NCBI GenBank assembly: GCA_014879445.1
Contig: JACSSC010000036.1
Coordinates: forward strand, 1 to 64,000
Source: Candidatus Competibacteraceae bacterium
Lineage (GTDB): Bacteria; Bacteroidota; Bacteroidia; CAIKAF01
Length of the DNA: 64,000 bases
Reading direction: 5' to 3'
Shown: positions 14,359 through 31,327 of the stretch, piece by piece
Numbering within the stretch: the stretch's first letter is position 1
Layout: every line of letters begins with the position of its first letter
The notes under the pieces: generated by a model
The model's database searches: none
The model's input: the letters and a program-made list of their open reading frames with translations, nothing else
What the model was told of the DNA's origin: nothing
Program-made: the position numbers and the translations under genes

Positions 14359-15252
14359 CTACAACCGGTTGAAAATATGCATAACTGCTGGGAAAATTGC
14401 ATCAATTGATTCGGCAGCACCCTGTGTTGAGCCCGGCAATCCTATAATTAAGGATTTGTTAAGCATACCTGCAACACTTCTCGAAAACATGGCATGGGGT
14501 GTACGTTGTTGTCCATAGCTTCGCATAGTTTCAGCAATACCCGGCACCTCCCTGTCAAAAAGCAGTGTTAGGGTTTCGGGCGTTCGGTCGGTTGGTGTCA
14601 AACCCGTTCCTCCTACTACTAATATTATTTCTATGCCCTCATTACTATATTTTTCAACAAGCGTTCGAAGTTGATTCATATCATCAGGAATGACTTCATA
14701 AGCCTTTATAGTGGCGCCTAAGGTTTCTATTTTGTGCTTTACGGCCCTACCTGCCGTATCCTCTTTTTTTCCTGATGTTATCGCATTAGAACAAACTACC
14801 ACAACAGCACTTATCTCTTTAATAAGGGGCTTTTGAAATGATGATTTCCCACCTGTTTTTTCTACCAGTCGAATATGTGAAATTTCTATGGACTTTTCTA
14901 TAGGTTTCAACATGTCATACATTGTCAAAGCAGCAATGCTTACCGCATGCATGGCCTCAACCTCTACTCCGGTTTTGTAGATTGTAGCCACATCCACACG
15001 AATATGAATTTCAAGCCCCCTTATTTCAAAATGAAATGCGGTATATTCAACAGGCAATGGATGGCAATCGGGTATAACGTCACTGGTTCTTTTTACCGCA
15101 AACAATCCGGCTGTCTTAGCCATTTCCAGCACATCGCCTTTAGGAACCCTTCTCGACTGAATGGCATCAATGGTGCTGGAATTTCCTACTTTTACTGTTG
15201 CTTCAGCAGTAGCGCGTCGAAGTGTATGAGATTTATGAAGAATGTTTACCAT
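14359..15252 (-). CDS. moaCB: bifunctional MoaC-MoaB, molybdopterin synthesis
   Basis: Fusion of cyclic pyranopterin monophosphate synthase (MoaC) with a MoaB/MogA-type domain; about 297 residues from the ATG at 15252. The open frame continues upstream to 15372 inside moaE, but MVNILHKSHTLRRATAEATV fits the MoaC start. MoaC part: AKTAGLFAVKRTSDVIPDCHPL with the catalytic Lys and VEKTGGKSSF. MoaB part from about residue 155: VVVCSNAI, VVGGTGLTPTDRTPET, LPGSTQGAAES. With MoaA it forms cPMP from GTP. Last gene of the operon. A separate mogA is also present, so the MoaB half may be redundant. Confidence 0.93.
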   Translation of the reverse strand: MVNILHKSHTLRRATAEATVKVGNSSTIDAIQSRRVPKGDVLEMAKTAGLFAVKRTSDVIPDCHPLPVEYTAFHFEIRGLEIHIRVDVATIYKTGVEVEAMHAVSIAALTMYDMLKPIEKSIEISHIRLVEKTGGKSSFQKPLIKEISAVVVVCSNAITSGKKEDTAGRAVKHKIETLGATIKAYEVIPDDMNQLRTLVEKYSNEGIEIILVVGGTGLTPTDRTPETLTLLFDREVPGIAETMRSYGQQRTPHAMFSRSVAGMLNKSLIIGLPGSTQGAAESIDAIFPAVMHIFNRL

Positions 15253-15268
15253 AACTCTTTTAATATTT

Positions 15269-15715
15269 TTAGTTTTTGTTTTCTTTCCAACTATGTGTTT
15301 GATCTGAAAATATTTCACGACCCCACACAGGCAGCTCTGCCTTAATTCGTTCAACCAATTCTGTGCAAGCATCTACTGCAGCACGTCGGTGTTTGGCTGA
15401 AGTAAACACAAACAAACAAATCTCTCCAGCATTCACAATGCCTAAACTATGATTTACTTGTATAGCATCTAAAGCGTATTTCTTTTCAAGCTCTGTACAC
15501 ATCAATTGTAATGCATCAATAGCCATCTCAGTATAAGTAGTGTACTCAATGGCCTCAACAGGTTTATTATCTATTATATCCATACGTACTTGACCAAGAA
15601 ATATACTGTGCCCACCAGTATGCTTTTGTGTATGGTGCGATTGAATAGCGTTAGCAATCCACGCTGGGCTAATAGCTCCATTTATAAAAACAGTGTTTGG
15701 ATGTATTTTTATCAT
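15269..15715 (-). CDS. moaE: molybdopterin synthase catalytic subunit
   Basis: MoaE takes sulfur from MoaD thiocarboxylate and inserts it into cPMP to make molybdopterin. 148 residues, usual length, with GGHSIFLGQVR, IEYTTYTEMA and the SAKHRRAAVDACTELVERIK region. Odd point: where E. coli has the active-site pair Lys119/Lys126 (in KxxxPxWKRE), this protein reads KAELPVWGRE, keeping the first Lys but having Gly at the second. The start overlaps moeB by 4 nt. Confidence 0.93.
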   Translation of the reverse strand: MIKIHPNTVFINGAISPAWIANAIQSHHTQKHTGGHSIFLGQVRMDIIDNKPVEAIEYTTYTEMAIDALQLMCTELEKKYALDAIQVNHSLGIVNAGEICLFVFTSAKHRRAAVDACTELVERIKAELPVWGREIFSDQTHSWKENKN

Positions 15716-16839
15716 AACGCTTTATTATAAAGGGTTGTACATTGAATTATACCACCTAATAGAGAATACGCAACTGCTTTCGGACGTTGAGATAAATAAA
15801 GCCCGACAGCATCTCGACTTCGTTTTCCGCTTTGACAAATAAAAATTACAGATATATCTTTAGAAATTTCCTCCATGCGATTCATCAATTCTGAAAGCGG
15901 TATTTGTGTGCAAGGCAAAGTAGAAACAGGGGGCAATTCATGGAGTTCTCTTACATCAATAAGCTGAAATTTATGGGGTTTCCGTGTATATTGTTGCATA
16001 AATTCTTCAAATGAAAGCTCAGGAATCATTGAATGTGAACAAAAATCAGGATAAGAAAATGAGCAAAGCTCATCAAGGGTTTCGGGCATGTATCCGGGTG
16101 GAATCATATATGGTAAAACATTCAGTTCGTACCATCTGTTTTGCAATATATCATAAGTAAGTAGCGTATTGTATAACGGTTTACCAATACCTGTTAACAC
16201 TTTAATGGCCTCGGTGGCTTGCATGATTCCAATCATACCCGGAAGCACCCCTATCACGCCGGCTTCACTACAATTGGGAACTTCATTTTTGCCGGGTGGC
16301 AATGGGAAAAAATGACGATAGTGAGAAGTATTTCCATCGGATAACTTCAGATTAAATACGCCTACTTGTCCTTCAAAACGATAAATAGAACCATAAATAA
16401 GAGGTTTATTAAGCAAAACACATGCATCATTAACCAAATAACGAGTAAAGAAATTATCCGAACCGTCAATAACCAAATCAACCTGTTCAATTAAGTCGAA
16501 TACGTTTGATTGATTAATCGCCGCATTTATCGGTACAATATGAATATGTGGATGCAAAACTTTAATGCGCTCAGCAGCTACAATTGCTTTGGGTTGGCCA
16601 ACATCAGCTGCACCAAAAAGTATTTGACGGTGCAAGTTTGATTGTTCTACATTGTCAAAATCAATGAGGGTAATATGGCCTACACCTGCAGCTGCTAAGT
16701 ATTGCAATATAGGACACCCAAGACCGCCTGCACCAATTATTAGGACATGAGCATCGAGCAACCTTGCCTGAGCTTCGATGCCAAATCCAGGCAAGTTAAT
16801 CTGCCGCTGATAAATCTGATATGTATCGTTATGAATCAT
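15712..16839 (-). CDS. moeB: MoeB/ThiF-type adenylyltransferase with rhodanese domain
   Basis: Activates the C-terminal Gly-Gly of MoaD by adenylation and may also transfer sulfur through its rhodanese domain. 375 residues. The N-terminal E1-like domain shows LIIGAGGLGCPILQYLAAAG (ATP site) and VIDGSDNFFTRYLVND; the C-terminal rhodanese domain (about 275-375) has the active-site loop ICQSGKRSRD. The usual MoeB zinc ligands are changed: the first CxxC reads HYRH before FFPLPP, and no second CxxC is evident. Sits between moaD and moaE, supporting MoeB rather than ThiF. Confidence 0.9.
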   Translation of the reverse strand: MIHNDTYQIYQRQINLPGFGIEAQARLLDAHVLIIGAGGLGCPILQYLAAAGVGHITLIDFDNVEQSNLHRQILFGAADVGQPKAIVAAERIKVLHPHIHIVPINAAINQSNVFDLIEQVDLVIDGSDNFFTRYLVNDACVLLNKPLIYGSIYRFEGQVGVFNLKLSDGNTSHYRHFFPLPPGKNEVPNCSEAGVIGVLPGMIGIMQATEAIKVLTGIGKPLYNTLLTYDILQNRWYELNVLPYMIPPGYMPETLDELCSFSYPDFCSHSMIPELSFEEFMQQYTRKPHKFQLIDVRELHELPPVSTLPCTQIPLSELMNRMEEISKDISVIFICQSGKRSRDAVGLYLSQRPKAVAYSLLGGIIQCTTLYNKAL

Positions 16840-16842
16840 TAT

Positions 16843-17076
16843 TTATCCTCCTGAAAAAGGTGGCAACAAAGCAATTTCACATGAAGATTGAATGGGTTGA
16901 TTGCAATGAATGATTTGCTTGTTAATGGCTATACGATAGCTCATATTTTGCAATGCTGGAAAATCATTTTCTAATTTTTTGCGCAATGAATCTGTATCCT
17001 GTACAGGAATTTCTTCCCATTGACTCTTGCCGGCAATCTCTGCAATTTTACCAAATGCCAGTATGGATATTTTCAT
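16843..17076 (-). CDS. moaD: molybdopterin synthase sulfur carrier subunit
   Basis: 77-residue ubiquitin-fold protein ending in ALLPPFSGG, the Gly-Gly tail that becomes the thiocarboxylate. N-terminus MKISILAFGKIAEIAG is typical. The start lies 29 nt inside the end of mobA, so the two are translated from overlapping frames. Confidence 0.93.
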   Translation of the reverse strand: MKISILAFGKIAEIAGKSQWEEIPVQDTDSLRKKLENDFPALQNMSYRIAINKQIIHCNQPIQSSCEIALLPPFSGG

Positions 17077-17662
17077 ATTTCAATATTTTTTTTGCTTGTA
17101 GATAATCTTCGGGCGTGTTGATATTTCTGAATATATCAAATTCTTGAGCCCATTCATCCATTTTTATTTCTACATACGGAAAATTTTCAATGGCTTTTTG
17201 CAGGCGAATTTGATTGTTTTCAATTTGATTTCTGAAATGATGCTTGGCATGAGTTGGATATAATCCAAAGAGAGGATGCTTTTGATGATTTACGCTAGCA
17301 AAAGAAATGGCGTTGTGTTTGGCATGGCGTATGAGATGAGTGATGGCCTCTGATGTAATAAAAGGTGTGTCGCAACTAACAATCAAGTTGAAGGGTGTGC
17401 AGCTATGGCTAAGCGCTGTGAATATTCCGCCTACTGGCCCAACATTTGGAATTATATCAGGAATTACGGAGATGTTATAATTATGGTATGAAGCATGCCC
17501 TGATACGATAATAATCTCATCGACACAAACATTCATCTGACGTATGATATGTGCCGTCATTGGCAAATCGGCAAGCAAAAGATGGCCTTTGTCTTGCCCC
17601 ATGCGTGAACTTTTTCCCCCTGCAAGGATATAGCCGGTGATATGTTTCTTTTGTATTTTCAT
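17048..17662 (-). CDS. mobA: molybdenum cofactor guanylyltransferase
   Basis: Attaches GMP to molybdopterin to give the MGD form needed by DMSO-reductase-family enzymes such as the alpha subunit of this operon. 204 residues with the nucleotidyltransferase opening YILAGGKSSRMGQDKGHLLL, then PDIIPNVGPVGGI and VSCDTPFI. Overlaps mogA by 4 nt and moaD by 29 nt. Confidence 0.93.
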   Translation of the reverse strand: MKIQKKHITGYILAGGKSSRMGQDKGHLLLADLPMTAHIIRQMNVCVDEIIIVSGHASYHNYNISVIPDIIPNVGPVGGIFTALSHSCTPFNLIVSCDTPFITSEAITHLIRHAKHNAISFASVNHQKHPLFGLYPTHAKHHFRNQIENNQIRLQKAIENFPYVEIKMDEWAQEFDIFRNINTPEDYLQAKKILKYENIHTGIW

Positions 17663-18195
17663 AATGTAGGCCTAAATACTTTGATATGCTCGGTATTAGC
17701 TTCAAGATATGGCCCTCCAATTAAATCAATGCAATATGGAATGGCAGGAAAAACAGCAGTTAGGCATTGACGAATAGCGGCAGGTTTCCCAGGCAAATTG
17801 ACAATCAATGATTGATTGCGAATGCCGGCGGTTTGTCTTGAAAGGATAGCAGTAGGAACGTGTTTCAAACTTTCTGTTCTCATCAATTCGCCAAATCCCG
17901 GGAGGATTTTTTGACAAACAGCTTCGGTAGCTTCAGTTGTAACATCCCTTAACGCCGGCCCTGTACCCCCGGTAGTAACAATCAAACAACATTTTTCAAT
18001 ATCGGCAAGTTCTGTCAATGTTTTTTCAATGATATTCTGCTCGTCGGCAACTAACCGATAAATGGGCTTCCACTGGTTAATTATAAATGAATTTAGTGTA
18101 TGAATAATTTCTTTCCCTGATATATCTTCATACACATGAGCTGCTGCCCTGTCTGAGCTGGTTAGAATGCCGATTTTTATGATTTCATTTTTCAT
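17659..18195 (-). CDS. mogA: molybdopterin adenylyltransferase
   Basis: Adenylates molybdopterin before molybdate insertion by MoeA. About 178 residues from the ATG at 18195, whose ATGA overlaps the stop of the TauE/SafE gene; the frame extends upstream to 18258 but coupling supports the inner start (MKNEIIKIGILTSSDRA). Motifs: TGGTGPALRDVTTEAT, SRQTAGIRNQSLIVNLPGKP. Closer to MogA than MoaB because of TGPALRD and length; the MoaB-like half of moaCB is the second member in this operon. Confidence 0.88.
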   Translation of the reverse strand: MKNEIIKIGILTSSDRAAAHVYEDISGKEIIHTLNSFIINQWKPIYRLVADEQNIIEKTLTELADIEKCCLIVTTGGTGPALRDVTTEATEAVCQKILPGFGELMRTESLKHVPTAILSRQTAGIRNQSLIVNLPGKPAAIRQCLTAVFPAIPYCIDLIGGPYLEANTEHIKVFRPTL

Positions 18196-18929
18196 TTTGC
18201 CATGATGAGTTTTAATGATGCTATGATTAATACAATGGATAGAATGCGTTTCAGCCATTTGTTATGCATACGAAAAGCCCCCGACCAGGCACCCAGCATA
18301 CCTCCGCCAAAAGCTAGCAGTATTAGAAACCAATAGTTATTATCCCATACCATCCCTTTTTGTATAATACCGGCTAGCCCTGCAATAGAATTTACAGCAA
18401 TAAACAACGCACTAATAACGGCTGTTTGTTTGATGTTAGTCCATCGCAACATAAGCAAAACCGGCGTAAGTATAATACCTCCCCCAATGCCAATTAAGCC
18501 GGAAAGAAAACCAATTACACCCCCAAGAAACATCGCTAATGGAATATTGATTTTAGCCGCTCTTTGTTCATTATCTTTTTTAGGTATGGCAAACTGAATG
18601 GCGGGAATTAAAAGCAGTAAGCCGAGAATATTTTTATATAATGAAGGATGAGTAGATATCTGACCACCGATGTATGCAGCCGGGATAGATGTAAGCGCTA
18701 ATAGCATAAATAAATCCCATTTCATGATTTTTAGTCGGTAAAACTGTATAAAGGCAATAAGAGAAACCAGTACATTTAGCATTAATGCTGTAGGTCGCAT
18801 CAGATAAGTGCTTACGCCAAACAATGCCATCAAAGCAAGATAACCGCTAGCACCACCATGCCCAACTGAAGCATACATAAACGCAACAACAGGCAACAGG
18901 ATAAAAAAAATAGGCGATAATTCCTCCAT
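18192..18929 (-). CDS. TauE/SafE (TSUP) family permease
   Basis: Inner-membrane protein of the TSUP family, which exports or imports sulfite, sulfoacetate and related anions. About 245 residues from the ATG at 18929 (MEELSPIFFILLPVVAFMYA), one base after the stop of the ModE-like gene. Seven to eight membrane helices and the two family repeats: VGHGGASGYLALMALFG and FLSGLIGIGGGIILTPVLLM. It lies within molybdenum-cofactor genes where a molybdate transporter might be expected, so transport of an oxyanion related to this pathway is possible (inference only). Confidence 0.88.
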   Translation of the reverse strand: MEELSPIFFILLPVVAFMYASVGHGGASGYLALMALFGVSTYLMRPTALMLNVLVSLIAFIQFYRLKIMKWDLFMLLALTSIPAAYIGGQISTHPSLYKNILGLLLLIPAIQFAIPKKDNEQRAAKINIPLAMFLGGVIGFLSGLIGIGGGIILTPVLLMLRWTNIKQTAVISALFIAVNSIAGLAGIIQKGMVWDNNYWFLILLAFGGGMLGAWSGAFRMHNKWLKRILSIVLIIASLKLIMAK

Positions 18930-18930
18930 G

Positions 18931-19284
18931 CTATGATTCCAATTTCTGAGTAAAATCTTGTTTAAATTCATTAAATTGTGCATGCAAATGATGAAATAAC
19001 TTCAACACTTCTTTGCCATATTCTGTAACAATAGCGCCACCTCCGTTTTTGCCTCCCACAGTTTTTTTAACCAATGCTCGCGGTGCTGACTCATTCATCT
19101 GCTTAATCATGGCCCATGCCTTCCGATACGAAATATCAAGATTATATGCAGCTTGTGAGATAGATCCTGTTTGTGCTATCATTTCAAGCAATTCGGCACG
19201 CCCCTTTCCTAATCGAAAGCCGTTTCCATTTTCAATCCATATATGACCCATCGCTTTCATATCGAAACAGATTAAGTCCAACAA
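18931..19284 (-). CDS. ModE-like winged-helix regulator lacking molbindin domain
   Basis: 117 residues matching the DNA-binding half of ModE: GFRLGKGRAELLEMIAQTGS then SISQAAYNLDISYRKAWAMI (helix-turn-helix) and the wing with GGKNGGGAIVTEYGKEVL. The two C-terminal molybdate-binding TOBE/Mop domains of E. coli ModE are absent, so it cannot sense molybdate the same way. The first in-frame ATG at 19284 overlaps moeA by 13 nt; ATGs at 19260 and 19251 are alternatives. Likely regulates this operon or molybdate uptake. Confidence 0.88.
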   Translation of the reverse strand: MLDLICFDMKAMGHIWIENGNGFRLGKGRAELLEMIAQTGSISQAAYNLDISYRKAWAMIKQMNESAPRALVKKTVGGKNGGGAIVTEYGKEVLKLFHHLHAQFNEFKQDFTQKLES

Positions 19285-20492
19285 TCGTAAAAACGGTGAA
19301 CGGGAACAATTGTGCCTTCTTCAATATGTGTCTGTTCTTCTTCCAAAACAATGAAACAGTCGGATTGAGTAAATGCTGAAAGTTGATATGACTCTTGCGA
19401 TTTCATTGCTTTTACTTTGTTGTTTTGTATTTGTGCCTTCAGAAAATGAGTTAGACCGGGTTTTTTATCTATGGATTCTCCTATCGGCATATAAACTACA
19501 AAAGGTGGCATGGCAGGAAGGCCTGTCATTTGGCGGATACATGGCACTACATATTCATAAAAACAGGTAAGTGCGGCAGCAGGATTTCCGGGCAATCCGA
19601 AGATTATACTAGATTCATGCTTCCCGACATACAGCGGTTTCCCTGGTTTTTGCTTGATTTTATAAAGTAGCTTTTCTACCCCGATTTTTTCCAAAACCGG
19701 TTGCACAAAGTCGTAATCGCCTGCTGATATTCCACCAGTAATCAGCAAAATGTCGCATACCGATATCGCCTTGTTTATACACTGCAATAATGAATCAGGA
19801 TTATCATCCGAAAACAAAGTAAGAATGGGCTCCATTCTGCCTTCCAACAACGCCGAAGTAAGTGTTACTGCATTGCTTTCATATATCTGGCCGTGAAGTA
19901 GTGATGTGCCTGGAAATACAAGTTCTTTTCCGGTAACGATAATGCCTATTCGAGGAGCAGGATACACGGCTACATCTGATATTCCCAAACCTGCCAAATA
20001 TCCTGCTACACCAGGTGTAATACGAGTTCCGGCCTGTGCCGCAACCTCTCCCTTTGCAATTTGTGATGCCTTGAATCGGATGTGCTGTCCTTTAAATATC
20101 TTTTCATCTGATATTTGGATGTATGAACCGTTGCGTGATGTTAGTTCTTGCATGATAACGGTGTCAGCTCCTTCAGGAATGGGTGCACCTGTGAATATTC
20201 GCGCTGCCGAATTTTCATATAATATTTTTTCACCAGTACTGCCCGCCTGAATTTCATCTTTTACTTCAATGTCTTGTATTTTTTTCAATGTGTCAAATGC
20301 AACAGCATATCCATCCATAGCCGATTGGTCAAATGGCGGTGAGTCAATGTTTGATATTACATCTTCGGCCAAAACACAGCCGGAGGCATCAAGCAACGAC
20401 ATGATAACAGGCCTGGTTCTACTTGTATGTGTCTGAATAATTTTACGGGCTTCATTAACTCCAATCATATTTCGATATGTTTTAAATGTCAT
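19272..20492 (-). CDS. moeA: molybdopterin molybdotransferase
   Basis: MoeA inserts molybdate into adenylated molybdopterin. About 406 residues from the ATG at 20492 (MTFKTY); 20519 and 20468 are other in-frame starts, but 20492 clears the moaA stop by 16 bp. Motifs: SPPFDQSAMDGYAV, RIFTGAPIPEGADTVIMQE, ITGGISAGDYDFV and FGLPGNPAAALTCFYEYV. Complete, with the C-terminal domain IV. Confidence 0.95.
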   Translation of the reverse strand: MTFKTYRNMIGVNEARKIIQTHTSRTRPVIMSLLDASGCVLAEDVISNIDSPPFDQSAMDGYAVAFDTLKKIQDIEVKDEIQAGSTGEKILYENSAARIFTGAPIPEGADTVIMQELTSRNGSYIQISDEKIFKGQHIRFKASQIAKGEVAAQAGTRITPGVAGYLAGLGISDVAVYPAPRIGIIVTGKELVFPGTSLLHGQIYESNAVTLTSALLEGRMEPILTLFSDDNPDSLLQCINKAISVCDILLITGGISAGDYDFVQPVLEKIGVEKLLYKIKQKPGKPLYVGKHESSIIFGLPGNPAAALTCFYEYVVPCIRQMTGLPAMPPFVVYMPIGESIDKKPGLTHFLKAQIQNNKVKAMKSQESYQLSAFTQSDCFIVLEEEQTHIEEGTIVPVHRFYDCWT

Positions 20493-20508
20493 AACGATGG
20501 GTAAAAAA

Positions 20509-21495
20509 CTACCCCCCAATTTTTATCATACTTCGGTTATTTATCCGAGCTGTATCTGTATATTCATAGTTAGATGGGAATTGCCCTCCACGCTCCTTAT
20601 GTTTTTCTGCAAAATGCATTTGTATCATGCCGGTAATATCATCTCCGTTACGAAATGCCTTCAATAAATCAACTTCGCCGGAGGAGAAAAGACAATTTTT
20701 CACTTTCCCATCTGCTGTTAGTCGAATCCGATTACATGTATTGCAAAAGGGCTGACTCATGGTTGTAATGATAGCAAACGTACCTTCGTGATTCAAGGGT
20801 TTAAACTTTTTTGCGGTATCGTTTATTTCATCTTTTATTTTAATAAAAGAGAATGACTCTTCAACATTTTGCAATATATCTGAAGCCGGTAGCACTTTAT
20901 CCTTATTCCAATAATTTCCGTCGAATGGCATAAATTCGATAAAGCGAACGTGCAATGGAAGATCTTTCGTGATAGAGACAAAATCATTGATTTCGTCATC
21001 ATTAATCCCTTTCATTGCAACAACATTAAGCTTCACATAAATTCCTTTGTTTAGTAAAAGAAGAATGTTGTTCCAAACTTTATTAAATGCATCTCTGCGG
21101 GTCAGTTTCAGAAATTTTTCGGGTTGAAGCGTATCCAAACTGATATTAATTGATCGGATGTCAGAATCAGCAAAAACATCAATGAATCGGTCAATCAAAA
21201 ATCCGTTTGAGGTAAGTGTAAGTTCAACTGGTAATGTTGAAAGACGTTTAATTATCTCAGCCCCATCAGTACGAACGAGTGGTTCACCGCCTGTGAGTCG
21301 AATTTTTTTTACACCCATTTTTACGAATGTAGTAGATATTGCCACTATCTCATCTACCGACATTAACTTGTTATGTGGTAGAAATGAAATATCTTCCTGA
21401 GGCATACAATACGAACAGCGAAAATTGCAGTTGTCTGTTATTGCAACTCGTAAATAATCGTGAATTCTGTTGTAACTGTCTGCAATCATAATCAC
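20509..21495 (-). CDS. moaA: GTP 3',8-cyclase (radical SAM)
   Basis: First enzyme of molybdenum cofactor synthesis: radical-SAM conversion of GTP to 3',8-cyclo-H2GTP. 328 residues. The SAM cluster motif CNFRCSYC (Cys 23, 27, 30), RLTGGEPLVR, the second cluster CNTCNRIRLTADGKVKNC and the C-terminal Gly-Gly that enters the active site are all present. Starts 9 bp after the TorD-like gene. Confidence 0.96.
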   Translation of the reverse strand: MIMIADSYNRIHDYLRVAITDNCNFRCSYCMPQEDISFLPHNKLMSVDEIVAISTTFVKMGVKKIRLTGGEPLVRTDGAEIIKRLSTLPVELTLTSNGFLIDRFIDVFADSDIRSINISLDTLQPEKFLKLTRRDAFNKVWNNILLLLNKGIYVKLNVVAMKGINDDEINDFVSITKDLPLHVRFIEFMPFDGNYWNKDKVLPASDILQNVEESFSFIKIKDEINDTAKKFKPLNHEGTFAIITTMSQPFCNTCNRIRLTADGKVKNCLFSSGEVDLLKAFRNGDDITGMIQMHFAEKHKERGGQFPSNYEYTDTARINNRSMIKIGG

Positions 21496-21504
21496 AAATC
21501 AGGA

Positions 21505-22101
21505 TTAATTTTCCCCTTCTGCTAGCATAGCTTCACCCTCAACAAAGATAACAAGCAATTCGCATAAAAGTTTAAAGTATGGAATGGCATCGCCTGACAA
21601 GATTTTCTTAGAAAATTTTTGAGAAAATTCAAGCAGATGTTCTTTCAGAAAATCATGATACGCTTCAAAAGTAACGCTACGAGCCTCTTGATTGGGGGCA
21701 ATGGCAATCTTGATATTTAGTAATGCCATAAATTCTAACTCATACATTATGGAGTCAGGCGACTCTCCTGATTTGGCTTCAAATCCGAAAGCAGCATAAA
21801 AGGCCGCTACATCACTCACACTATTGAAGCTTGTAACCGTATGACTTTCTGTAACCGGCACGCCACCCTGAATGAAAATGCGTGAATACTCAGCTGCAAT
21901 TCGTTCATCATTCAACTCACCAGCAAATGCCTGAAGTTTGGCAATCACACCTGCAGGCAATTCATTTTCTTTCAGTAATTCTGTGGTTAATGACTCAACG
22001 GATTTAAGCATTTCATTATCCGGATACGATAATCCGGCACTAAGCAGCCGATACATATCGGCTGCCAATAAGTGCGAACGAGATTCATTTGTTATAACCA
22101 T
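21505..22101 (-). CDS. TorD/DmsD-family molybdoenzyme chaperone
   Basis: About 198 residues, all-helical, with AEYSRIFIQGGVPVTESH and a Tyr/Phe-rich middle, matching TorD/DmsD/NarJ-like chaperones that hold the apo-alpha subunit and its Tat signal until molybdopterin is inserted. It lies between the subunit genes and moaA, so its client is surely the alpha subunit of this operon (inference). The ATG at 22101 avoids overlap with the gamma gene; 22116 is an alternative. Confidence 0.85.
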   Translation of the reverse strand: MVITNESRSHLLAADMYRLLSAGLSYPDNEMLKSVESLTTELLKENELPAGVIAKLQAFAGELNDERIAAEYSRIFIQGGVPVTESHTVTSFNSVSDVAAFYAAFGFEAKSGESPDSIMYELEFMALLNIKIAIAPNQEARSVTFEAYHDFLKEHLLEFSQKFSKKILSGDAIPYFKLLCELLVIFVEGEAMLAEGEN

Positions 22102-22105
22102 GATA

Positions 22106-23356
22106 TTATTTTTCAAGTATTAAATCAGCCCACTGTGCATAATGTTTGCGACCGCCGATATTTTCTTTATTGCCATCCCAAACAGCAAAAGCAATTTTAG
22201 TTTTATCTTTCATGGCTGCTTTATATTTGTTACCCGAATTTACATCAAATATAATACAAACTGTCCATTTACCATTTTGATGACGTGCCCAACCGGTAGC
22301 TGTTTGGTCTTCCATTGATGTAAGTGTGCCAAATCCAACTGCTGATGCTTCTTCAACGGGCTGTTGGCGTTTGATCTTACTCATAAAGTTTCCGCTAGCT
22401 GTGCCTGGCATATTAAATGTCGTTCCTTTTTCAACCATCTCTTCAGCACGAATATTTATTGATTGCAATTTGCGACTACGGTCAAGTTGCGATTCCTGTC
22501 CGGGATAAATATCAACGGTTGCGTTGGGATATGCATCTTTAACATCGCGGAATCCATTTTCGCAATCTTCCTGCCATACAGCTTTCCAGTGGATGATGTG
22601 TACATATCCGCCTGCATTCCCCATCATATAGCTAGGAATGTTGTTAACATCAACAGGCAATTGTATAGCTACCTGATCAGAGAATTGATCAACTTCAACA
22701 AACACATCTTTTGAAGTATCGTTCCATTCCATCCATATCGCTACTTTATTTCCATTATAAACACTCTTTACGGACATCTGAGCAAGACTGGTTTCGTGCA
22801 AATTGGGATACACGATGTTTTGTGCGGCAAGTGGAATGTTAGTTGCAGATACTGTTTGCCACATGCTATTATCCAAATCACGGGCATTCAACTCTGTTGC
22901 TACTTTCTTAGAAGTAATTGAAATGTCAGACGGTGTCCATGGAGCTACTTTTGTTTCCTTAACAGTTTCTGTTTTGGTTTCTGTTTTGGTTTCTGTAGTT
23001 ACAGTTGTTGTAGTTTTAACTGTACTGTTTTGTTTTATGTAATTAATTACATTTTTTATTTCGGCATCCGTCAGGTTATTATCTGGCATGGGTATCTTGT
23101 TATACTCATTGAAGATTTTAACCGCTTTGGCATCACCTTTCTTTACCATGGTTTGTGAGGAACGGATAAAACTAATCAACCACGACTCAGGATACTTTGC
23201 GTGTACACCATTCAAATCAGGTCCAACTAATTTACCTTTTCCAATGGTATGACATGCAGAACAAACTGATTTGAAAATCTGGTCACCGCTTTTTTGAGCC
23301 AGCGTTAAAGCCGGTAAACTCATCAGCGCTATGGAGAAAATGATAATTTTTTTCAT
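22106..23356 (-). CDS. gamma subunit: cytochrome c fused to ethylbenzene-dehydrogenase-type heme domain
   Basis: About 416 residues from the ATG at 23356 (MKKIIIFSIALM); the frame is open to 23494 but the signal peptide MKKIIIFSIALMSLPALTLAQ fixes the start. Residues 22-105 are a class I cytochrome c: CSACH heme site and Met in NKIPMPD. A Thr/Glu/Lys linker with TETK repeats follows (about 107-130). The rest is an EB_dh-type domain (PF09459 type), which in EbdC, DdhC, SerC and ClrC holds heme b through Met and Lys; the GGYVHIIHWKAVW segment is typical. It would pass electrons between the Fe-S beta subunit and periplasmic or membrane carriers. Similar fusions are known for some NXR gamma candidates. 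Confidence 0.88.
   Translation of the reverse strand: MKKIIIFSIALMSLPALTLAQKSGDQIFKSVCSACHTIGKGKLVGPDLNGVHAKYPESWLISFIRSSQTMVKKGDAKAVKIFNEYNKIPMPDNNLTDAEIKNVINYIKQNSTVKTTTTVTTETKTETKTETVKETKVAPWTPSDISITSKKVATELNARDLDNSMWQTVSATNIPLAAQNIVYPNLHETSLAQMSVKSVYNGNKVAIWMEWNDTSKDVFVEVDQFSDQVAIQLPVDVNNIPSYMMGNAGGYVHIIHWKAVWQEDCENGFRDVKDAYPNATVDIYPGQESQLDRSRKLQSINIRAEEMVEKGTTFNMPGTASGNFMSKIKRQQPVEEASAVGFGTLTSMEDQTATGWARHQNGKWTVCIIFDVNSGNKYKAAMKDKTKIAFAVWDGNKENIGGRKHYAQWADLILEK
22965..22995 (-). repeat. 12-bp tandem repeat coding the TETK linker
   Basis: The unit gtttctgttttg (plus strand) occurs twice in tandem (22965-22976, 22977-22988) with a partial third copy to 22995. On the minus strand it codes the repeated Thr-Glu-Thr-Lys linker between the cytochrome c and heme b domains. 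Confidence 0.8.
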
Positions 23357-23390
23357 CTTTTCGTTTTTTAATGATTTACATGTTTGCTTG

Positions 23391-24521
23391 TTATGGAGTA
23401 TTATGTCTGAAAGTAGATGCATTGGGATCCCAGTGCGGACGAGCAAATACAGGTTCGGTATAAGGTACACGTACAATTTCGTCGCCGGCTTCATTGTATC
23501 CTACGGCATGCTTATCTTCGGCTTTGTATGAATGAATAATCCGAGGCGAGTTGCCAAATAACAGGAATGCTGCTAACAATTCCTTATCATCTTTCATGTT
23601 GCGGTATGTTTCAATCGTTTTATCAACACCTGGACCAAACATTTGATAAAGAAAATCCTTAGGAACATGAACAGGTGGTACATAATATACATTAGGTTGT
23701 GTACCATATTGAGGATACAATGGTAATGCAACTTTTTTGATGTGCACAATTTGATCCATCGGATTGTCTTTACGTATTTTTTCGGGTTCACCCAAAAATC
23801 CTTGCATACGAATTTTTCCAATGCAGGTAGTTACGCAACGTGGCTGTTCGCCTTTTTCAATCAGCGGATAGCATCCGATACATTTTTCGGATACTCTTGT
23901 TACCATATTAAAGAATGTTTTTTTGTATGGACAGGCCTTAATACATTCTTTATATCCACGACAACGTGATTGGTCAATCAGTACAATACCATCTTCTTCT
24001 CTTTTGTAAATCGCTTTACGTGGGCAAGCAGCCAAACAGGCAGGATATGAGCAATGATTACATATACGAGCTAAATAAAACATCCATACATCGTGCATGC
24101 CATTAAAAAATGCGCCTTTGTCCATCAATCCTTTTACTTCATCTTCGCCGATATTTGGATATGCATAATCTCTTTCTTCTGGCCTCCACCCTCTTACGCG
24201 TTCGCCATTTTCGGTATTTTCAAAAATCGTGCTTCCCTTGTATTCTCCTGATGCACTCCATTGCTGATCTTTGATATTTTTCAGTGTATTCACATCCCAA
24301 CGAAGCGGATACCCTCCGTATGGTTTTGTTTCTACATTATTGAAGAAAATGGTTTCCTCTCCTTTTCCTGATGTCCATGTAGTTTTACAAGCAACAGTAC
24401 ATGTTTGACAGGCAATACATTTATTGGTGTCAAAAACATATGCAATTTGCTTTTTGGGTTTAGCAGCTTCGTATGGATATTCCATCTCTCTTTTCAACTG
24501 CCAGTTATTTACTTTTGCCAT
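23391..24521 (-). CDS. molybdoenzyme beta subunit with four Fe-S clusters (NarH/NXR-B type)
   Basis: 376 residues. Electron-transfer subunit of a type II DMSO reductase complex. Cluster motifs in order: CIACQTCTVAC (35-45), CNHCSYPACLAACP, CRGYKECIKACP, and CIGCYPLIEKGEQPRCVTTC. The third has Tyr where the fourth Cys would be (CxxYxxC), the same place where NarH has Trp, so that cluster is probably [3Fe-4S]. No signal peptide: it would be carried through the Tat pore with the alpha subunit. KPYGGYP and GKIRMQGFLG are shared with EbdB/SerB/ClrB/NxrB. Located between alpha and gamma genes. Confidence 0.93.
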   Translation of the reverse strand: MAKVNNWQLKREMEYPYEAAKPKKQIAYVFDTNKCIACQTCTVACKTTWTSGKGEETIFFNNVETKPYGGYPLRWDVNTLKNIKDQQWSASGEYKGSTIFENTENGERVRGWRPEERDYAYPNIGEDEVKGLMDKGAFFNGMHDVWMFYLARICNHCSYPACLAACPRKAIYKREEDGIVLIDQSRCRGYKECIKACPYKKTFFNMVTRVSEKCIGCYPLIEKGEQPRCVTTCIGKIRMQGFLGEPEKIRKDNPMDQIVHIKKVALPLYPQYGTQPNVYYVPPVHVPKDFLYQMFGPGVDKTIETYRNMKDDKELLAAFLLFGNSPRIIHSYKAEDKHAVGYNEAGDEIVRVPYTEPVFARPHWDPNASTFRHNTP

Positions 24522-24557: not shown

Positions 24558-27500
24558 TTATTTTACAAATCCACCATTGAGGAAAGTTTTGAAGTCATTA
24601 TCCTCATATGTAGGACGCATGCCTTTTTCTACACCTTCCCAAAGACCTGTTCCATCAAGTCCGCCTTTTTCAGCAAGTGTAATTTTTACGAATGATTCAC
24701 GAGGATTTCCTGTTGCACCATGTACATCAATCTCAAATCCCTTGTCAATGCCCTGTCCAAAGTTATTCTTACGAACTAATGAATCAGTTAGCAAAGTGGG
24801 TTTAAGCCATGCACGTGTACAACTTTGATGAGACCCGTTTCTGAATAGTGCCTGATATCCGGTTGTAGGATTTTTAGCTAGCCCGTCTGTATTTACCTTT
24901 GCGCCTCTTACAGAACCGTATGTTGAACCATAGGCATTGTGCCACATACGTGTTACGCCTTTAGGAGTACCCGGATAGTAACGTGCACGTGCCTTCAGTC
25001 GCGCCAATTCATATTCTTCTCCCTCTTTCTTTTGCTGCCAGCCACGGAAAGGACGATCTGATGGGTCGGCATCAATCCACACATAATCTCCATCTTCTAC
25101 ACCCAATGATTTGGCATCGTCTGGATTGATATCTACATATAATTCGGTAACGAATGGCTTACGCTTATCTTTACGGTGCATGTCGCCAAACGGACCAAAC
25201 CAAACCGAAATAATATCGGTATCAACAGGTGTAGTATGAGCCCCATGACGAAATTTAGGTGTGTGAAATACAAATCTGAAATCTTTGTCTTGCGCTTGCA
25301 ACGGATGCTTGGTGTTTTTTACCTCGCTCCATGGTTTTACCACGTTACGTGCCTGACGAGTATCTGTTCCTAGATCGTTAATATCAACGCCATATTTTTG
25401 AGGGCCATCGGGCTTGATACATGGGTGTTCTTTTCCAACAATTACATTGGGCTCATAAAATGTTGAGTCAATCGGTTCACGGAATACAACCATGTTTTCG
25501 CCCGCTTCCAAAAATTCGGGCTCATCTCGATAAAATTCCATTCTGCCCGATTTGGTGTACCATTGTTTCTCTTCATCAACCTGCTCCATTCCCACATATT
25601 TGGGCGTTGTACGAGTCATAAGTAACGCTGGAATACCTTGTTTGGCCTGAGCTTCCAGATCATTAAACTTATATCCTGTTGTACCGTTACTCTTATCCAA
25701 AATGCGTTGTAGATATACCTCAGGTTTGTTTTCATGAATGAACTTAAAGTAATCATAGAAGCGCTTATCGTTTGTTAAATCACCAAAAGCTTTGGCCAAC
25801 CCTGCCAATACTTCCACATCTCCCTTAGTGTCGAAAATACGCTTTAACGGAGTGCGTGGAAATACATATAGGAAAGGATTGGTTACTGATATAGTCATAT
25901 CGGGATATTTGAATTCTGACCATGAATCTACAGGGAATACGATATCAGAATATTCGCATGATCCTGTCCACCACCATTCCAAAACACTTATAAACTCAAT
26001 TTTGGGGTACACGTTAATCACGTTTTCATAATGTCCTTTAGCATTAGCCAAGAGTGAATTCCCATTTGAAACAAGAATAGATTTGGTCGGTGTTGGCATA
26101 TGGGTCTTACCTGTCAGGTTCTTCTTTCCCATACGCAGAATTCGATCGCCATTGTTAAAGAAGTGGGCAGATTCGTAATGGAAATACTTCTTAATTTTTG
26201 AATCTTTACTTCCATCCGTCTCAATGTTAAATGGATCCTCGGCAATATAACTGGGTAAGCCGGCAAAATAAGCGCCTCGGTAATTCCCTGCATAGCTGCC
26301 GACATTCCCTCCAACCTTTCCAATATTTCCTGTAATGCTTGCCAGGAATAGTATTGCACGGTCTTTCAAGTCGTTATTGAAGAATTGATTGGGCCCCATA
26401 CCCATGGCAAAAAGAGTTTTCCCGTTATTATTGGCTATCTCATGGGCAATAGATTCGACACCTGCTTTGGGTGCCCAAGTAAGTTCTTCCGTTGTTGCAG
26501 GATCGTAGTTCTCCATAACGTATTCTTTCATCAGATCAAATACGGTTCGAACTTCAATTTCTTTTCCATCTACGGTTTTAACTTTAAACTTGCCCTCCAA
26601 AGCTGGATTTACACCTTTATCAAGCATATATTTTCCATAATCATCACGACTAATCACGGATGTTGAATTTTTGGTGGCATCCCATACTACAAAATCACCC
26701 CATTCTTTTGCCAGTTCTTCATTTACAAAAGGTACTCCTTGTTGTAAATTTGGTTTCCCTTTTTCTCCTTTCTTAATTACTTCGATATAATTTTTCAACT
26801 CCGCTTTCTGATAGTTGGCAATAATATCCGTAGGTTTTAGCATTTTCTGATTATCCATTCTAACTAAGAATGGCAAATCCGTATACTTCTTCATAAATTG
26901 CTCATCATACTTTTTGTCGCGTATGATAACATGAGCAAATCCTAATGCAAGTGCAGGAGTAACACCCGGACGACAAACCAATAAGTTATCAGCTTTATTA
27001 GCCGTTGCACTATATTCGCAAGCAATAACCGTAACCTTTGCTCCTTTCATACGGGCCTCTGTAAGCCAATGCGCATCTGGCATTTTGGTTGTTATCCAGT
27101 TCATCCCCCATACAATGATGTGGTTTGAGTGATCAACACATGCCAAATCAAAATCTACGGTTTGCTGTCCGGTTACCATCGGATGCCCGGGCGGCAAATC
27201 GGTATGCCAAGCATAACTGTCCCAACAACGTGCACCATGAGAATGTGCTGCATCCGTATTGTTCATATGAGCATCCAGCAATGCCAAAGAATTGGCTAAA
27301 CGGTTAACACCAAAAATACGAATGGCGCCAAGTGGAGCCATACCACCACGGAATTTCAATACCTGTGTGCCATGTCCTTCTGTTGCTTCTACCATTAATG
27401 GATCGTAACCTTGTTTAAGGAGTTTTTTCTGACCGTCTTTCCCATTATATGTCTGCGCAATGTTTTGAAGTGAAGAAGCGCCATATTTAAATGCGTCTTC

Positions 27501-28037
27501 CCATGAGATACGAACAAAATGTTCCTTACCTCTTCCTTGCAAATATTCAGCGGGTATGCGTCCGTCTTTTTCACGTGGCATGCCCCGCATAATCCATTTG
27601 AGGTATCCTTCGCGAATAACCGGATATTTTACACGGCGGTCGCCATAAAAACGACGTGTAAGTGCTAATCCTTTTTGGCAACATCTTGGCTCCCATCTAG
27701 CAGTTGCTTGATTGCCCTGCAAATCTTTTGCATTTGAAAATCCAAAGCTAGGGGCAATCCGAATCATCGAACCATTTTTAACATGCGCTTTGAGTAAACA
27801 GTTGTGTGTGTCGTTAGGGGCACAGAGAAAAGTAAATTCTTCATCGTACTTCCATAGATCCCGATATACCTTTTCCCATCCGCGGTTGGGGTATTTGGCC
27901 AATGGATTTTCGATATCCGTCGGGTCGAAATGATTAAATGTGCCGGCAAAACTTTCCAAATGAAACTGCGATAGTACTGCCGTTCCAACCGAAGTGATGA
28001 GCGTGGTTCTGAGAAACTGTCTTCTGTTACTTTTCAT
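24558..28037 (-). CDS. molybdopterin oxidoreductase alpha subunit, NarG/NXR type, Tat-exported
   Basis: 1159 residues, catalytic subunit of a type II DMSO reductase family enzyme. The twin-arginine signal NRRQFLRT is at residues 4-11. The [4Fe-4S] site reads [10 protein letters not shown] ... RCCQKG; aligned to NarG (H-x3-C-x3-C-x34-C) the ligands would be Cys72, Asp76, Cys80 and Cys120. CAPNDTH is, from memory, typical of nitrite oxidoreductases and related periplasmic nitrate reductases. [10 protein letters not shown] (Asp280) aligns with the NarG segment that gives the Asp ligand of Mo. No NarI membrane subunit is encoded, and the Tat signal and cytochrome gamma subunit place the enzyme in the periplasm. 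Nitrate reductase, nitrite oxidoreductase, or chlorate/selenate reductase remain possible; I favour nitrate/nitrite. Confidence 0.9.
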
Positions 28038-28047
28038 GGCTTATGTA

Positions 28048-29412
28048 TTAAAATTTTAATCCTGTAAATTTTCGTTGTTTGCCGGGGCGAATGATTAACA
28101 TCACATAACCCCAATGATTAATATCCATCGCTGTTTCTAACGACCGCAATTTCTTCAGCGACTCCATAGCATACATCATCGAATATCCGGCCTGCAAAGA
28201 AAAAGCATCATTAATCACAAAACCTCCGGCCAAATCTATTTCATATCCCAAATTCCCCGACAGGGTTTGAACATTACCCGGCGTTGAATTTTTATCATAA
28301 ATCGCTGCTGCTGCACGGAAAAAATGTTGATTGAGTGATATAAATCCGCGTGTGCTGAAATCGTATTTTAATCGCACATAAAAATCATGCAGGCCAACAC
28401 TGTTTTCGTGACGTCCTCCTACATAAAAATAATCCATATATCCATTATGGCGATGGTTTGTACCAAATAACGGACTATATGAATTGTTTCGAGTATTAGC
28501 CGAGTCAATCTGACTTGTGCCGGATAACAAATCAGCCCCCACACTTACGGAAATACGGTTCTTTAATGAATCGTTGAAAACATGCGTGTAATTTGCATCT
28601 ATGCCAATATTATACGCATTCATAGGGCGATTGTTTTTATCTGTACCCAACTGATAATAAACCGAAGCTGCCAAAGTAAATCCTTTAATGGTATATGATA
28701 TATTAGGCAACCCAAATGTTTGCATATATTTATATGATTCGGATATTGTGCTATCCGGATTCATGGTTTCGTAAACAACACCGTTATTCCAAAAAATACC
28801 ACTAATCGCAAAATTTTTGATTTTTGATTCAAGTCGAAGAAATTGTGCAATCTTATATGAATTGGTAAGCGAGTTGGGCATGCCAAAAACATCTTTCATT
28901 TGAAAATTATATGCAAAACCTGCTTCTCCAGATATCTTGTCGTAATTCATTTTAAACATAATGGCATCATGCGAACGCGCTTGCAAGGCCCAATCCACAT
29001 TGCCCAAGAAGCGATTGTTGTCAAAATCCAATTCTTGTCTTCCAGTTTTTAATGAAAAGTTCTTGCTAAGGTTAAATTCGCCCCATGCTTCGTGTATGCC
29101 TATGAAATTATCTGTAAGTGCTACTGATGGATTTGTTCCCCATCTCCTAATATCCTGCACAGCCATATAAATATGGTATTTCTCTTTCTTTAATCTGAAC
29201 TCAAGTCGAGCTCTTTGACCAACTAAAAAATCGGGCTCTCTTGTGTCTTTAGCAGGATTGCCAAATCCTTTCAAAACCTCAGCACGCTGTAATAACTCTA
29301 CATTAACGGTAAATTGCGAGAAGGAATCTTGCGTAAATATAATTATGGCGATAAAAACAATTAATACTCTAAACCAAAGCACATCGCTCAAAACATTCAC
29401 GTCAAACCTCAT
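28048..29412 (-). CDS. outer-membrane beta-barrel, alginate-export-like
   Basis: First gene of the molybdoenzyme operon. About 454 residues from the ATG at 29412 (MRFDVNVLS, then a hydrophobic signal segment ending DSFSQ); an ATG at 29460 would add 16 residues. The mature part is a chain of amphipathic beta strands ending in Phe (GRQELDFDNNRFLGNVDWALQ is partly diagnostic), like the alginate export / AlgE-type porin family. In this position it may let nitrate, nitrite or other anions through the outer membrane (inference). It ends 10 bp before the alpha gene. Confidence 0.78.
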   Translation of the reverse strand: MRFDVNVLSDVLWFRVLIVFIAIIIFTQDSFSQFTVNVELLQRAEVLKGFGNPAKDTREPDFLVGQRARLEFRLKKEKYHIYMAVQDIRRWGTNPSVALTDNFIGIHEAWGEFNLSKNFSLKTGRQELDFDNNRFLGNVDWALQARSHDAIMFKMNYDKISGEAGFAYNFQMKDVFGMPNSLTNSYKIAQFLRLESKIKNFAISGIFWNNGVVYETMNPDSTISESYKYMQTFGLPNISYTIKGFTLAASVYYQLGTDKNNRPMNAYNIGIDANYTHVFNDSLKNRISVSVGADLLSGTSQIDSANTRNNSYSPLFGTNHRHNGYMDYFYVGGRHENSVGLHDFYVRLKYDFSTRGFISLNQHFFRAAAAIYDKNSTPGNVQTLSGNLGYEIDLAGGFVINDAFSLQAGYSMMYAMESLKKLRSLETAMDINHWGYVMLIIRPGKQRKFTGLKF

Positions 29413-29485
29413 ATTTTGAGGATGACGTGTTGTGCCGATGCTGCCTTTCTTGTATATCATAGAGTAACAAAGTAAATTATCGACA

Positions 29486-29493
29486 CAAAGGTA
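29486..29493 (-). promoter_or_regulatory. -7 promoter element of the molybdoenzyme operon
   Basis: On the minus strand this reads TACCTTTG, a perfect TAnnTTTG. The transcription start would be near 29483, 22 bp before the first in-frame ATG at 29460. No -33 TTTG is seen at the normal spacing, in keeping with an activator-dependent promoter. Confidence 0.6.
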
Positions 29494-29532
29494 TCTTTGC
29501 TGATTCTACTAGAAGTTGATAATGCTCAGTTT

Positions 29533-29556
29533 ATAATGTGATTTTGCTCACATTAT
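29533..29556. promoter_or_regulatory. CRP/FNR-family binding palindrome
   Basis: ATAATGTGA-ttttgc-TCACATTAT: a perfect 9-bp inverted repeat around 6 bases, containing the full TGTGA-N6-TCACA consensus of the CRP family. The centre (29544.5) is about 61 bp upstream of the predicted start site near 29483, the classic class I activator position. Rest of the gene-free stretch 29461-29845: AT-rich DNA, a second half site TTGTGA near 29564, and a terminator at 29792-29820. Confidence 0.75.
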
Positions 29557-29791
29557 TATTCTTTTGTGAATTTACTTTTTGGATTGCCTATATCTCTATG
29601 TTTATACGATTTACATAATAAAAACAAATAATTTGATTTTATTAATGCTTCAAAGCGTTTTATTCACACTTCAAATCTAACAGTCGTTGAATAATAATTT
29701 TTTTTTGTAATACTTACCACTTTCGTTTAGTACAATTACATATCTGAATTGTATTTTATGTTATACTAATTTTTCTGGTGAAGGTAAAAAA

Positions 29792-29820
29792 AAGAACCGG
29801 AGTAAGATGTTCCGGTTCTT
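29792..29820 (-). terminator. rho-independent terminator of the T9SS/PKD gene
   Basis: Perfect 10-bp stem AAGAACCGGA/TCCGGTTCTT with a 9-base loop, followed on the minus strand by eight T residues (29784-29791). It lies 26 bp behind the stop of the minus-strand T9SS gene. Confidence 0.88.
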
Positions 29821-29845
29821 CTAATTAAGTTGGTATATGGCTATT

Positions 29846-31327
29846 TTATGGCCTTACAATACGCGAATGATATATCTGATCATTAACAGAAATACGTATT
29901 ATGTATGTTCCAGAAGCAAATTCATGCAATGAGATTGGATGATTACTTTGCAACATCTGTGTTTTTATAATCTTTCCATCCATGCCCAAAATTTCTGCAC
30001 GGACTGATGTCTGCAAATTTTCTGAAAACTGTATCATAATATAATCTGTAGCAGGATTGGGAAAAATCAAATAAGGTAATGAAGTTTCATTATCAAGCGA
30101 AAGGAGTGACGTGATTACTTCGCGACAAATGGTTTGTGGACATCCGCTAGCGCTATATACGGTAAGGCAAACGGTAAAAGTATCTGCATAGGCATAAGTA
30201 TGAGTAGGATTTTGCAACATGGAGGTCCCTCCGTCACCAAAATCCCAAAACCAGCTAACAGCACCACTTGAATTGTCAATAAATTGCACAAAAAGCGCAT
30301 TGATGTTTGAATTGAAGTTAGCAACAGGGAATGTACCTACAGAAAGATTAGCTCCATTATCACTACCTGTTACAGCCGGCGTTGAAGAAATCACTCGTAT
30401 GCGATATCCTGTTCCTGCATTCGCAGCAATAGGAATAACTGCATCTATAATACCTGATACAGTTGATGTAATTGTACCGATATTTGTTGGGCTGGCAAAC
30501 GACCCTAATTCATTTGACAGTTGTGCTGTAAATACATTACCTCCCGTAAAAGTGCCACTGGCAGTATATGCAACAGAAACAGAATCGCCCGGACAAAAAC
30601 TGTTTGCAGATACATTATCAGTTGTAATGGTATTCGTAATGGTGGGAGATCCGGTGATATTGATTTCATCAACTGAGAATGGGGGGTCGCTGGCACTCAT
30701 GGTAAAGTTGTTAACAAAACGAAATCCAAATCGAAGCGTGGCCTGATTATCCCATGTAGCATTTGTATAATTTGCCTGTGTCCATGAGTTTTGATTATAT
30801 AAATTTCCTTGATGTAAAAACCAAGTACTGCCTCCATTGGTGCTGTAATAGAGTTCGCCATAGCTAGCAGCCGACCCCGTGCAGAGATAATAGAACGAAA
30901 AACTTACATTATTATAGCCAACTGTAGAAATATCATTGCTCATTTTGGCAAAATTATTCTCATTGTTATAACAAAACCAACCACCATCAGATGCCACAAA
31001 ATTGGCATTTGAAACACCTGCACCATTTGCAGCATTATTTACGATATGGAGATACTTACTGTTGGGTGCCCCTGTAATACCTGCCGTTTGCGCTGGTGTT
31101 GTAGCAATATTTATTGTTGATGAAAGACAGGGTTCAATAAAAGAACCTCCATTATAACTATTGTTGATAATCCAACTGTTCACGCCCGATGTGGTTGAAC
31201 TTTGATCGCTTGTATTTAGCGTAAAAGCAGAAGTCGCTCCATTGAAATTTTCGGTAAACAAAACTGTCTGACCCTGAACTTGCCAAGATATAAACAGGGA
31301 AGAAATAATAAGTAGTTGTTTTTTCAT
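29846..31327 (-). CDS. T9SS-secreted protein with PKD domain
   Basis: 493 residues. Signal peptide MKKQLLIISSLFISWQVQGQ; a jelly-roll-like region with Asn/Tyr/Trp repeats (about 60-230, NVSFSFYYLCTGSAASYGEL); a beta-sandwich region (240-330); a PKD domain (about 335-400, SWFWDFGDGGTS and PTHTYAYADTFTVCL); and a T9SS type A sorting domain (YLIFPNPATDYIMIQF ... SGTYIIRI). No catalytic motif is visible. Probably a surface or extracellular binding protein. Monocistronic, with its own terminator. Confidence 0.85.
   Translation of the reverse strand: MKKQLLIISSLFISWQVQGQTVLFTENFNGATSAFTLNTSDQSSTTSGVNSWIINNSYNGGSFIEPCLSSTINIATTPAQTAGITGAPNSKYLHIVNNAANGAGVSNANFVASDGGWFCYNNENNFAKMSNDISTVGYNNVSFSFYYLCTGSAASYGELYYSTNGGSTWFLHQGNLYNQNSWTQANYTNATWDNQATLRFGFRFVNNFTMSASDPPFSVDEINITGSPTITNTITTDNVSANSFCPGDSVSVAYTASGTFTGGNVFTAQLSNELGSFASPTNIGTITSTVSGIIDAVIPIAANAGTGYRIRVISSTPAVTGSDNGANLSVGTFPVANFNSNINALFVQFIDNSSGAVSWFWDFGDGGTSMLQNPTHTYAYADTFTVCLTVYSASGCPQTICREVITSLLSLDNETSLPYLIFPNPATDYIMIQFSENLQTSVRAEILGMDGKIIKTQMLQSNHPISLHEFASGTYIIRISVNDQIYHSRIVRP

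Follow-up and report, generated by a model that had tools for sequence, protein, structure and literature searches.

Which regulator acts on the perfect palindrome in front of a molybdoenzyme operon, and from which promoter position, is the question raised by this locus. The stretch of DNA analysed here, hereafter the window, comprises 64 kb and carries the operon on its minus strand. The first operon gene (28048-29460) encodes an outer-membrane beta-barrel protein, an alginate-export-like porin. It is followed by genes for a molybdopterin catalytic subunit of 1159 aa with a Tat signal from the type II DMSO reductase family (24558-28037), an Fe-S subunit resembling the DMSO reductase type II beta subunit and NarH/NxrB (23391-24521), a gamma-like cytochrome c and heme-b-binding (EB_dh) subunit, the true start of which is probably downstream of the listed ATG (22106-23494), and a TorD/NarJ-like maturation chaperone (21505-22116). 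Downstream on the same strand are molybdenum-cofactor genes (14359-21495), namely moaA, moeA, a ModE-like regulator gene, a TauE-like gene, mog, mobA, moeB, moaE and moaC/mog; these names were read from the translations, and the ModE domain alone was identified by profile search. The 117-aa protein encoded at 18931-19284 within this Mo-cofactor operon contains only the ModE HTH domain and is possibly a DNA-binding-only ModE.

The preceding gene (29846-31327, minus strand) ends in an intrinsic terminator detected by folding (29785-29827, minus strand; -17.5 kcal/mol, z -6.3), a strong hairpin with a 9-nt loop followed by T's. With the preceding gene closed off in this way, a separate promoter is required for the operon. 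From that gene to the start of the porin gene at 29460 the gap measures 385 bp, and it holds two dyads and a -7 box.

The distal operator is predicted at 29533-29556 and is a perfect palindrome without strand, ATAATGTGA-N6-TCACATTAT, which reads ATAATGTGA-GCAAAA-TCACATTAT on the operon strand (29556-29533). With its core at 29537-29552, its centre at 29544.5 and two perfectly matching 9-bp arms (29533-29541 and 29548-29556), it is indeed the inverted repeat with TGTGA-N6-TCACA described in the initial annotation. Within the window TGTGA-N6-TCACA is present only once, even with one mismatch allowed. In shuffles of the 64 kb 2.6 one-mismatch matches to the 10-base core are expected, so the bare palindrome is only mildly improbable. 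Genome-wide site statistics were obtained by pattern searches of the 2.69-Mb genome, where the exact core is found in two places, at 29537-29552 and at C39:79177, where it falls some 18 nt into a coding region. The genome scan proposed in the initial annotation did not find the palindrome scattered at random positions, the other exact copy being intragenic. That the palindrome is not a chance occurrence is shown by its being conserved in front of orthologous operons whose promoters cannot be aligned. Upstream of the operator, at 29616-29644, the window contains a 14-nt A/T-rich inverted repeat with a 1-nt loop.

A -7 promoter element, TACCTTTG (TAnnTTTG), is located at 29486-29493 on the minus strand, and the distance from its G to the palindrome centre is 58.5 bp. 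In Flavobacterium psychrophilum (Bacteroidota) TAnnTTTG occupies -12 to -5 of mapped transcription starts (PMC9723704). With the box placed at -12 to -5 accordingly, the start (+1) is predicted at 29481 on the minus strand, five bases downstream of the G, and the palindrome centre is shifted from the earlier estimate near -61 to about -63.5. At the -33 position TTC is found instead of TTG, as expected from the reported absence of a -33 box, and scanning the region for the sigma-70 consensus yielded no hit better than those in shuffles. A second dyad, CTGAGCATTATCAA on the operon strand, was overlooked in the initial annotation. It is weaker than the palindrome, lies exactly 22 bp downstream of it and has a TGA-N6-TCA core at 29528-29517. 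The corresponding weak proximal operator is predicted at 29515-29530 (ACTGAGCATTATCAAC, read on the minus strand), with the core at 29517-29528 and the centre at 29522.5, about -41.5. Counted from the start predicted with the -7 box, this dyad would fall exactly at the class II position of -41.5, and nowhere else in the 64-kb window is a perfect TAnnTTTG accompanied by a perfect TGA-N6-TCA core at a distance of 36.5 bp. A lone class I site, as originally assumed, was rejected because of this second dyad and the conserved 22-bp spacing; the layout found is a tandem pair with a strong site at -63.5 and a weak one at -41.5.

For comparison, 13 promoters of orthologous NXR/type-II DMSO-reductase operons, covering other families and one other class, were analysed. 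Three orthologous operons originated from a contig search, one from another class (G247) and more from the class; for some operons the choice of the first gene was made by eye, in an ORF table in which sites were listed as well. The distances of 36.5 and 58.5 bp between dyad centre and the G of the -7 box were derived from the window, L016, L017 and L018, and both were set before the class promoter set was obtained. Perfect TGTGA-N6-TCACA sites were found in 4 of the 13 promoters (window, L017, G247 and G708; shuffle mean 0.003), sites with at least 9 of 10 matches in seven (0.16 in shuffles) and sites with at least 8 of 10 matches in nine (1.9 in shuffles); G476 and G608 had no site with at least 8 of 10 matches in the stretch examined. 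Other similarity between the compared promoters was not detectable. In a scan of 60 distances with none fixed beforehand, the mean combined score was highest at 58.5 bp and second highest at 36.5 bp. In six of the nine promoters with a site of at least 8 of 10, a -7 box with at least 5 of 6 matches was located at exactly one of these two distances (null mean 0.2; six reached in 0 of 3000 shuffles), and five remain without the window. The distance is 58.5 bp in the window and in L017, G708 and G444, the latter three boxes having one mismatch each, and 36.5 bp in G483 and G465. Moreover, L016 has a perfect -7 box 36.5 bp from a 7 of 10 site, and L018 has a perfect -7 box at 37.5 bp. A second TGA-N6-TCA-like dyad 22 bp further on matches 6, 6, 5, 4 and 4 of 6 core positions in the window, L017, G708, G444 and G247, respectively, giving a mean of 5.0 of 6 at this spacing versus an average of 1.7 at other spacings. 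The operator of L017 (2094-2119) has 13-bp perfect arms (CACTAAAGTGTGA-N6-TCACACTTTAGTG) and is unusually long for a CRP/FNR site.

Taken together with the regulator analysis below, the distal palindrome is probably the high-affinity half of a tandem CRP/FNR activator pair on the NXR-like operon, with a protein encoded on contig C3 as the likely activator. In both L017 and G247 a CRP/FNR regulator gene is located directly upstream of the operon; in G247 the perfect palindrome lies between this gene and a porin gene, which precedes the alpha subunit gene there as well. The best match in this genome to the two regulators is encoded at C3:1793-2509 (48% and 43%, respectively). The C3 protein is a member of the CRP/FNR superfamily, scoring 79.5 bits with PF00027 (cNMP-binding fold; cut-off 27.5) and 56.8 bits with PF13545 (Crp-type HTH; cut-off 27), and among the genomes of the family it is found almost exclusively in this one and the congener G002 (95%). 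In a maximum-likelihood tree the regulators of C3, G002, G708, L017 and G247 form one clade (96/95). Four of the five clade genomes have the operon, and these are exactly the four genomes with a perfect site.

All of these regulators have R180-E181 and an R or K at 185; the recognition helix of C3 is of the CRP type R-E-x-x-x-R (R180-E181-(R185)). The residue numbering follows the E. coli sequences. Residue 180 of CRP/FNR proteins has been linked to the third base of the half-site, with R180 accompanying TGTGA (PMC1274295). In accordance with this published link, the L016 regulator has T180 and its site is AATGAT-N4-ATCATA, and the G508 regulator has V180 and its site is TTGAC-N4-GTCAA. A sister clade with R180 is present in G483 and G465, the promoters of which contain single TGTGA-type sites at -41.5. 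G444 (L090) and G538 (L092) depart from this link, as they have TGTGA-type sites and no R180 regulator was found in them at E<=1e-25, and for L018 (G425) the regulator search found a receiver-type homologue only.

At the FNR cysteine columns C20, C23, C29 and C122 the C3 protein has C, C, S and C, i.e. three of four, and another cysteine is close by (CNHC-x8-C). The CxxC motif and the cysteine matching FNR C122 make an Fe-S cluster reading O2 or NO plausible in this protein. An assignment as FNR proper is not made, since the fourth cysteine column holds Ser and the best NCBIfam Fnr model, NF008365, scored 96.6 bits, below its cut-off of 228.

It is unlikely, though the alternative comes nearest to the preferred reading, that the tandem sites are real and bound by another regulator of this genome, either the protein designated C55 or the one designated C13a. 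C55 is the second R-E-x-x-x-R regulator of the genome (helix REVISR) and shares R180/E181/R185; it has no cysteines and falls outside the clade of operon-linked regulators, the best match to which is C3. C13a is FNR-like and adjoins a gene for a FixI/CcoI-type ATPase, but its T180 leads one to expect a preference for TTGAT/TGAT over TGTGA (PMC1274295). On C13 (L042, 6442-7921) two adjacent CRP/FNR genes are located beside a FixI/CcoI-type ATPase gene, and the second of this pair has an odd recognition helix (KTNLYR).

Much less probable is that the palindrome serves as operator of the redox repressor Rex, which responds to NADH/NAD+ and controls anaerobic genes (PMC2883068). The Rex consensus TTGTGAA-N4-TTCACAA also contains TGTGA-N6-TCACA, and its core is identical to that of the palindrome, but in the window, L017 and G708 the flanking positions carry A or G where the Rex consensus has T, and the inner bases are different as well. 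Furthermore, in several relatives the half-site changes with residue 180 of the CRP/FNR protein, the regulator genes adjacent in L017 and G247 belong to the CRP/FNR family, and a spacing of -41.5/-63.5 is the geometry of an activator. A chance palindrome or a DNA or RNA hairpin with no regulatory role is hardly credible: with one mismatch allowed the 10-base core is frequent (74 copies in the genome versus 43 for the reversed control), but presence, spacing and regulator match are conserved across 13 operons and recur at a second target in the same genome.

With the tandem activator pair preferred, the suggestion of control by an anaerobic or NO-responsive CRP/FNR protein is upheld by the comparative evidence as far as an anaerobic activator of this family is concerned, and only its lone class I reading is given up. 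According to the model, two CRP/FNR dimers would bind the same face of the DNA two helical turns (22 bp) apart, centred at -63.5 and -41.5. The distal dimer would load first and may help to fill the weak proximal site cooperatively. From its class II position the proximal dimer could then contact RNA polymerase and replace the missing -33 element. The predicted outcome is a steep anaerobic switch for the operon.

A second target in the same genome emerged from a pattern search in which the distance to the -7 box was allowed to vary. This region (C39:123896-123939), which is conserved in G002, is located between the divergent genes bcrC and a gene for a MocA-like Mo-cofactor cytidylyltransferase. 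bcrC is followed by bcrB, bcrA and bcrD, and BcrC, BcrB and BcrD scored above cut-off. The bcrC/mocA gap contains four dyads (8 to 9 of 10 matches), which are spaced 33, 22 and 22 bp apart. On the mocA side, the -7 box AATGTTTG is at distances of 58.5 and 36.5 bp from the last two dyads, the layout being that of the window; toward bcrC, the outer dyad lies 36.5 bp from TACTTTTG. In G002 three of the four dyads are kept, one of them as perfect TGTGA-N6-TCACA. This congener has the regulator and the bcrC/mocA target, and the NXR-like operon was not detected in it, which argues for a wider role of the regulator in the genus than the window operon. The genes at L145 (C39:113823-123839) and L140 make up a cluster for an ATP-dependent benzoyl-CoA reductase of the bcrCBAD type, here in a genome of the Bacteroidota.

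Several known systems share parts of this arrangement. As at E. coli FNR class II promoters, a dyad predicted at -41.5 lies over a missing -33/-35 box, the target is an anaerobic respiratory operon and the likely regulator combines CxxC with a central cysteine. The differences are the half-site TGTGA instead of TTGAT, R180 instead of V, Ser in the fourth cysteine column, a Bacteroidota -7 box and an additional dyad located 22 bp upstream. Promoters of E. coli with tandem CRP sites (class III) have two dyads on one face with the downstream one at the class II position, as is predicted here; unlike there, no sign of cAMP use is seen here, the spacing is 22 bp and the stronger site is upstream. 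AadR/AcpR-type FNR regulators control benzoyl-CoA reductase genes in anaerobic aromatic degradation and in this respect resemble the candidate, which belongs to another phylum and regulator clade and would share its regulon with a nitrate-reductase-like operon. An FNR-type regulator with the CRP-like TGTGA-N6-TCACA motif is Fnr of Bacillus subtilis, the cysteines of which are C-terminal, whereas those found here are N-terminal and central. The same combination of FNR-type regulator and CRP-like TGTGA-N6-TCACA motif, also comparable to the present one, has been described for Crp2 of T. tengcongensis (PMC1274295). HcpR of Desulfovibrio recognizes wTGTGAnnnnnnTCACAw with the specificity residues R180/E181 (PMC1274295), both as observed here, but HcpR has no FNR-type cysteine motif and controls hcp, while regulators of the present clade have the cysteines and, in L017 and G247, adjoin the NXR-like operon. 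The C3 protein is not assigned to HcpR because of its FNR-type cysteines and the other target operon, even though R180/E181 with the CRP-like motif does match. In the literature searched no FNR-type regulon of this layout was found in Bacteroidota.

With regard to the enzyme, the closest solved structure of the catalytic subunit is nitrite oxidoreductase subunit A (NxrA, 7b04), matched over nearly the full length (E 7e-260), with NarG and ethylbenzene dehydrogenase matching far less well. The cut-offs of the NCBIfam type II models were not reached, and the subunit is therefore described as an NXR-like relative without assigned direction. The anaerobic control deduced here favours a reductase role, and the predicted operon product is most likely an anaerobic reductase of nitrate or a similar oxyanion; control of this type also argues that these NXR-like enzymes act as nitrate reductases rather than nitrite oxidases. 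The operon is present in 1 of 16 genomes of its own family, namely this one, and, in a sample of 395 genomes from the class, in 13, counting this one; the family of G247 was searched and had no further copy. Such a patchily distributed operon has likely moved horizontally among Bacteroidota. Our tentative view, held with slightly less than even confidence, is that an Fe-S-type FNR clade with CRP-like specificity shares the -63.5/-41.5 code at scattered NXR-like operons of Bacteroidota and in this genus has recruited the ATP-dependent benzoyl-CoA reductase/mocA region. If true, one sensor would couple nitrate respiration to anaerobic aromatic degradation, and nitrate respiration and benzoyl-CoA reduction would be linked in one organism. 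The conserved 36.5/58.5 bp code relative to the -7 box offers a specific rule, open to testing, by which class II promoters could be sought in Bacteroidota.

The single-mismatch sites retrieved from this genome are mostly intragenic, apart from one before an MbnP/MbnH pair and a few others, and are not claimed as targets; the norC promoter of the genome contains a weak half-site only. At L138 (C22:129026-129069) TGTGATTTTTGTCATA, a site with a single mismatch that has the -7 box TACTTTTG 35.5 bp away, precedes the genes for an MbnP/MbnH-like copper protein and di-heme enzyme, a pair that, judged from this arrangement, is a possible further member of the regulon.
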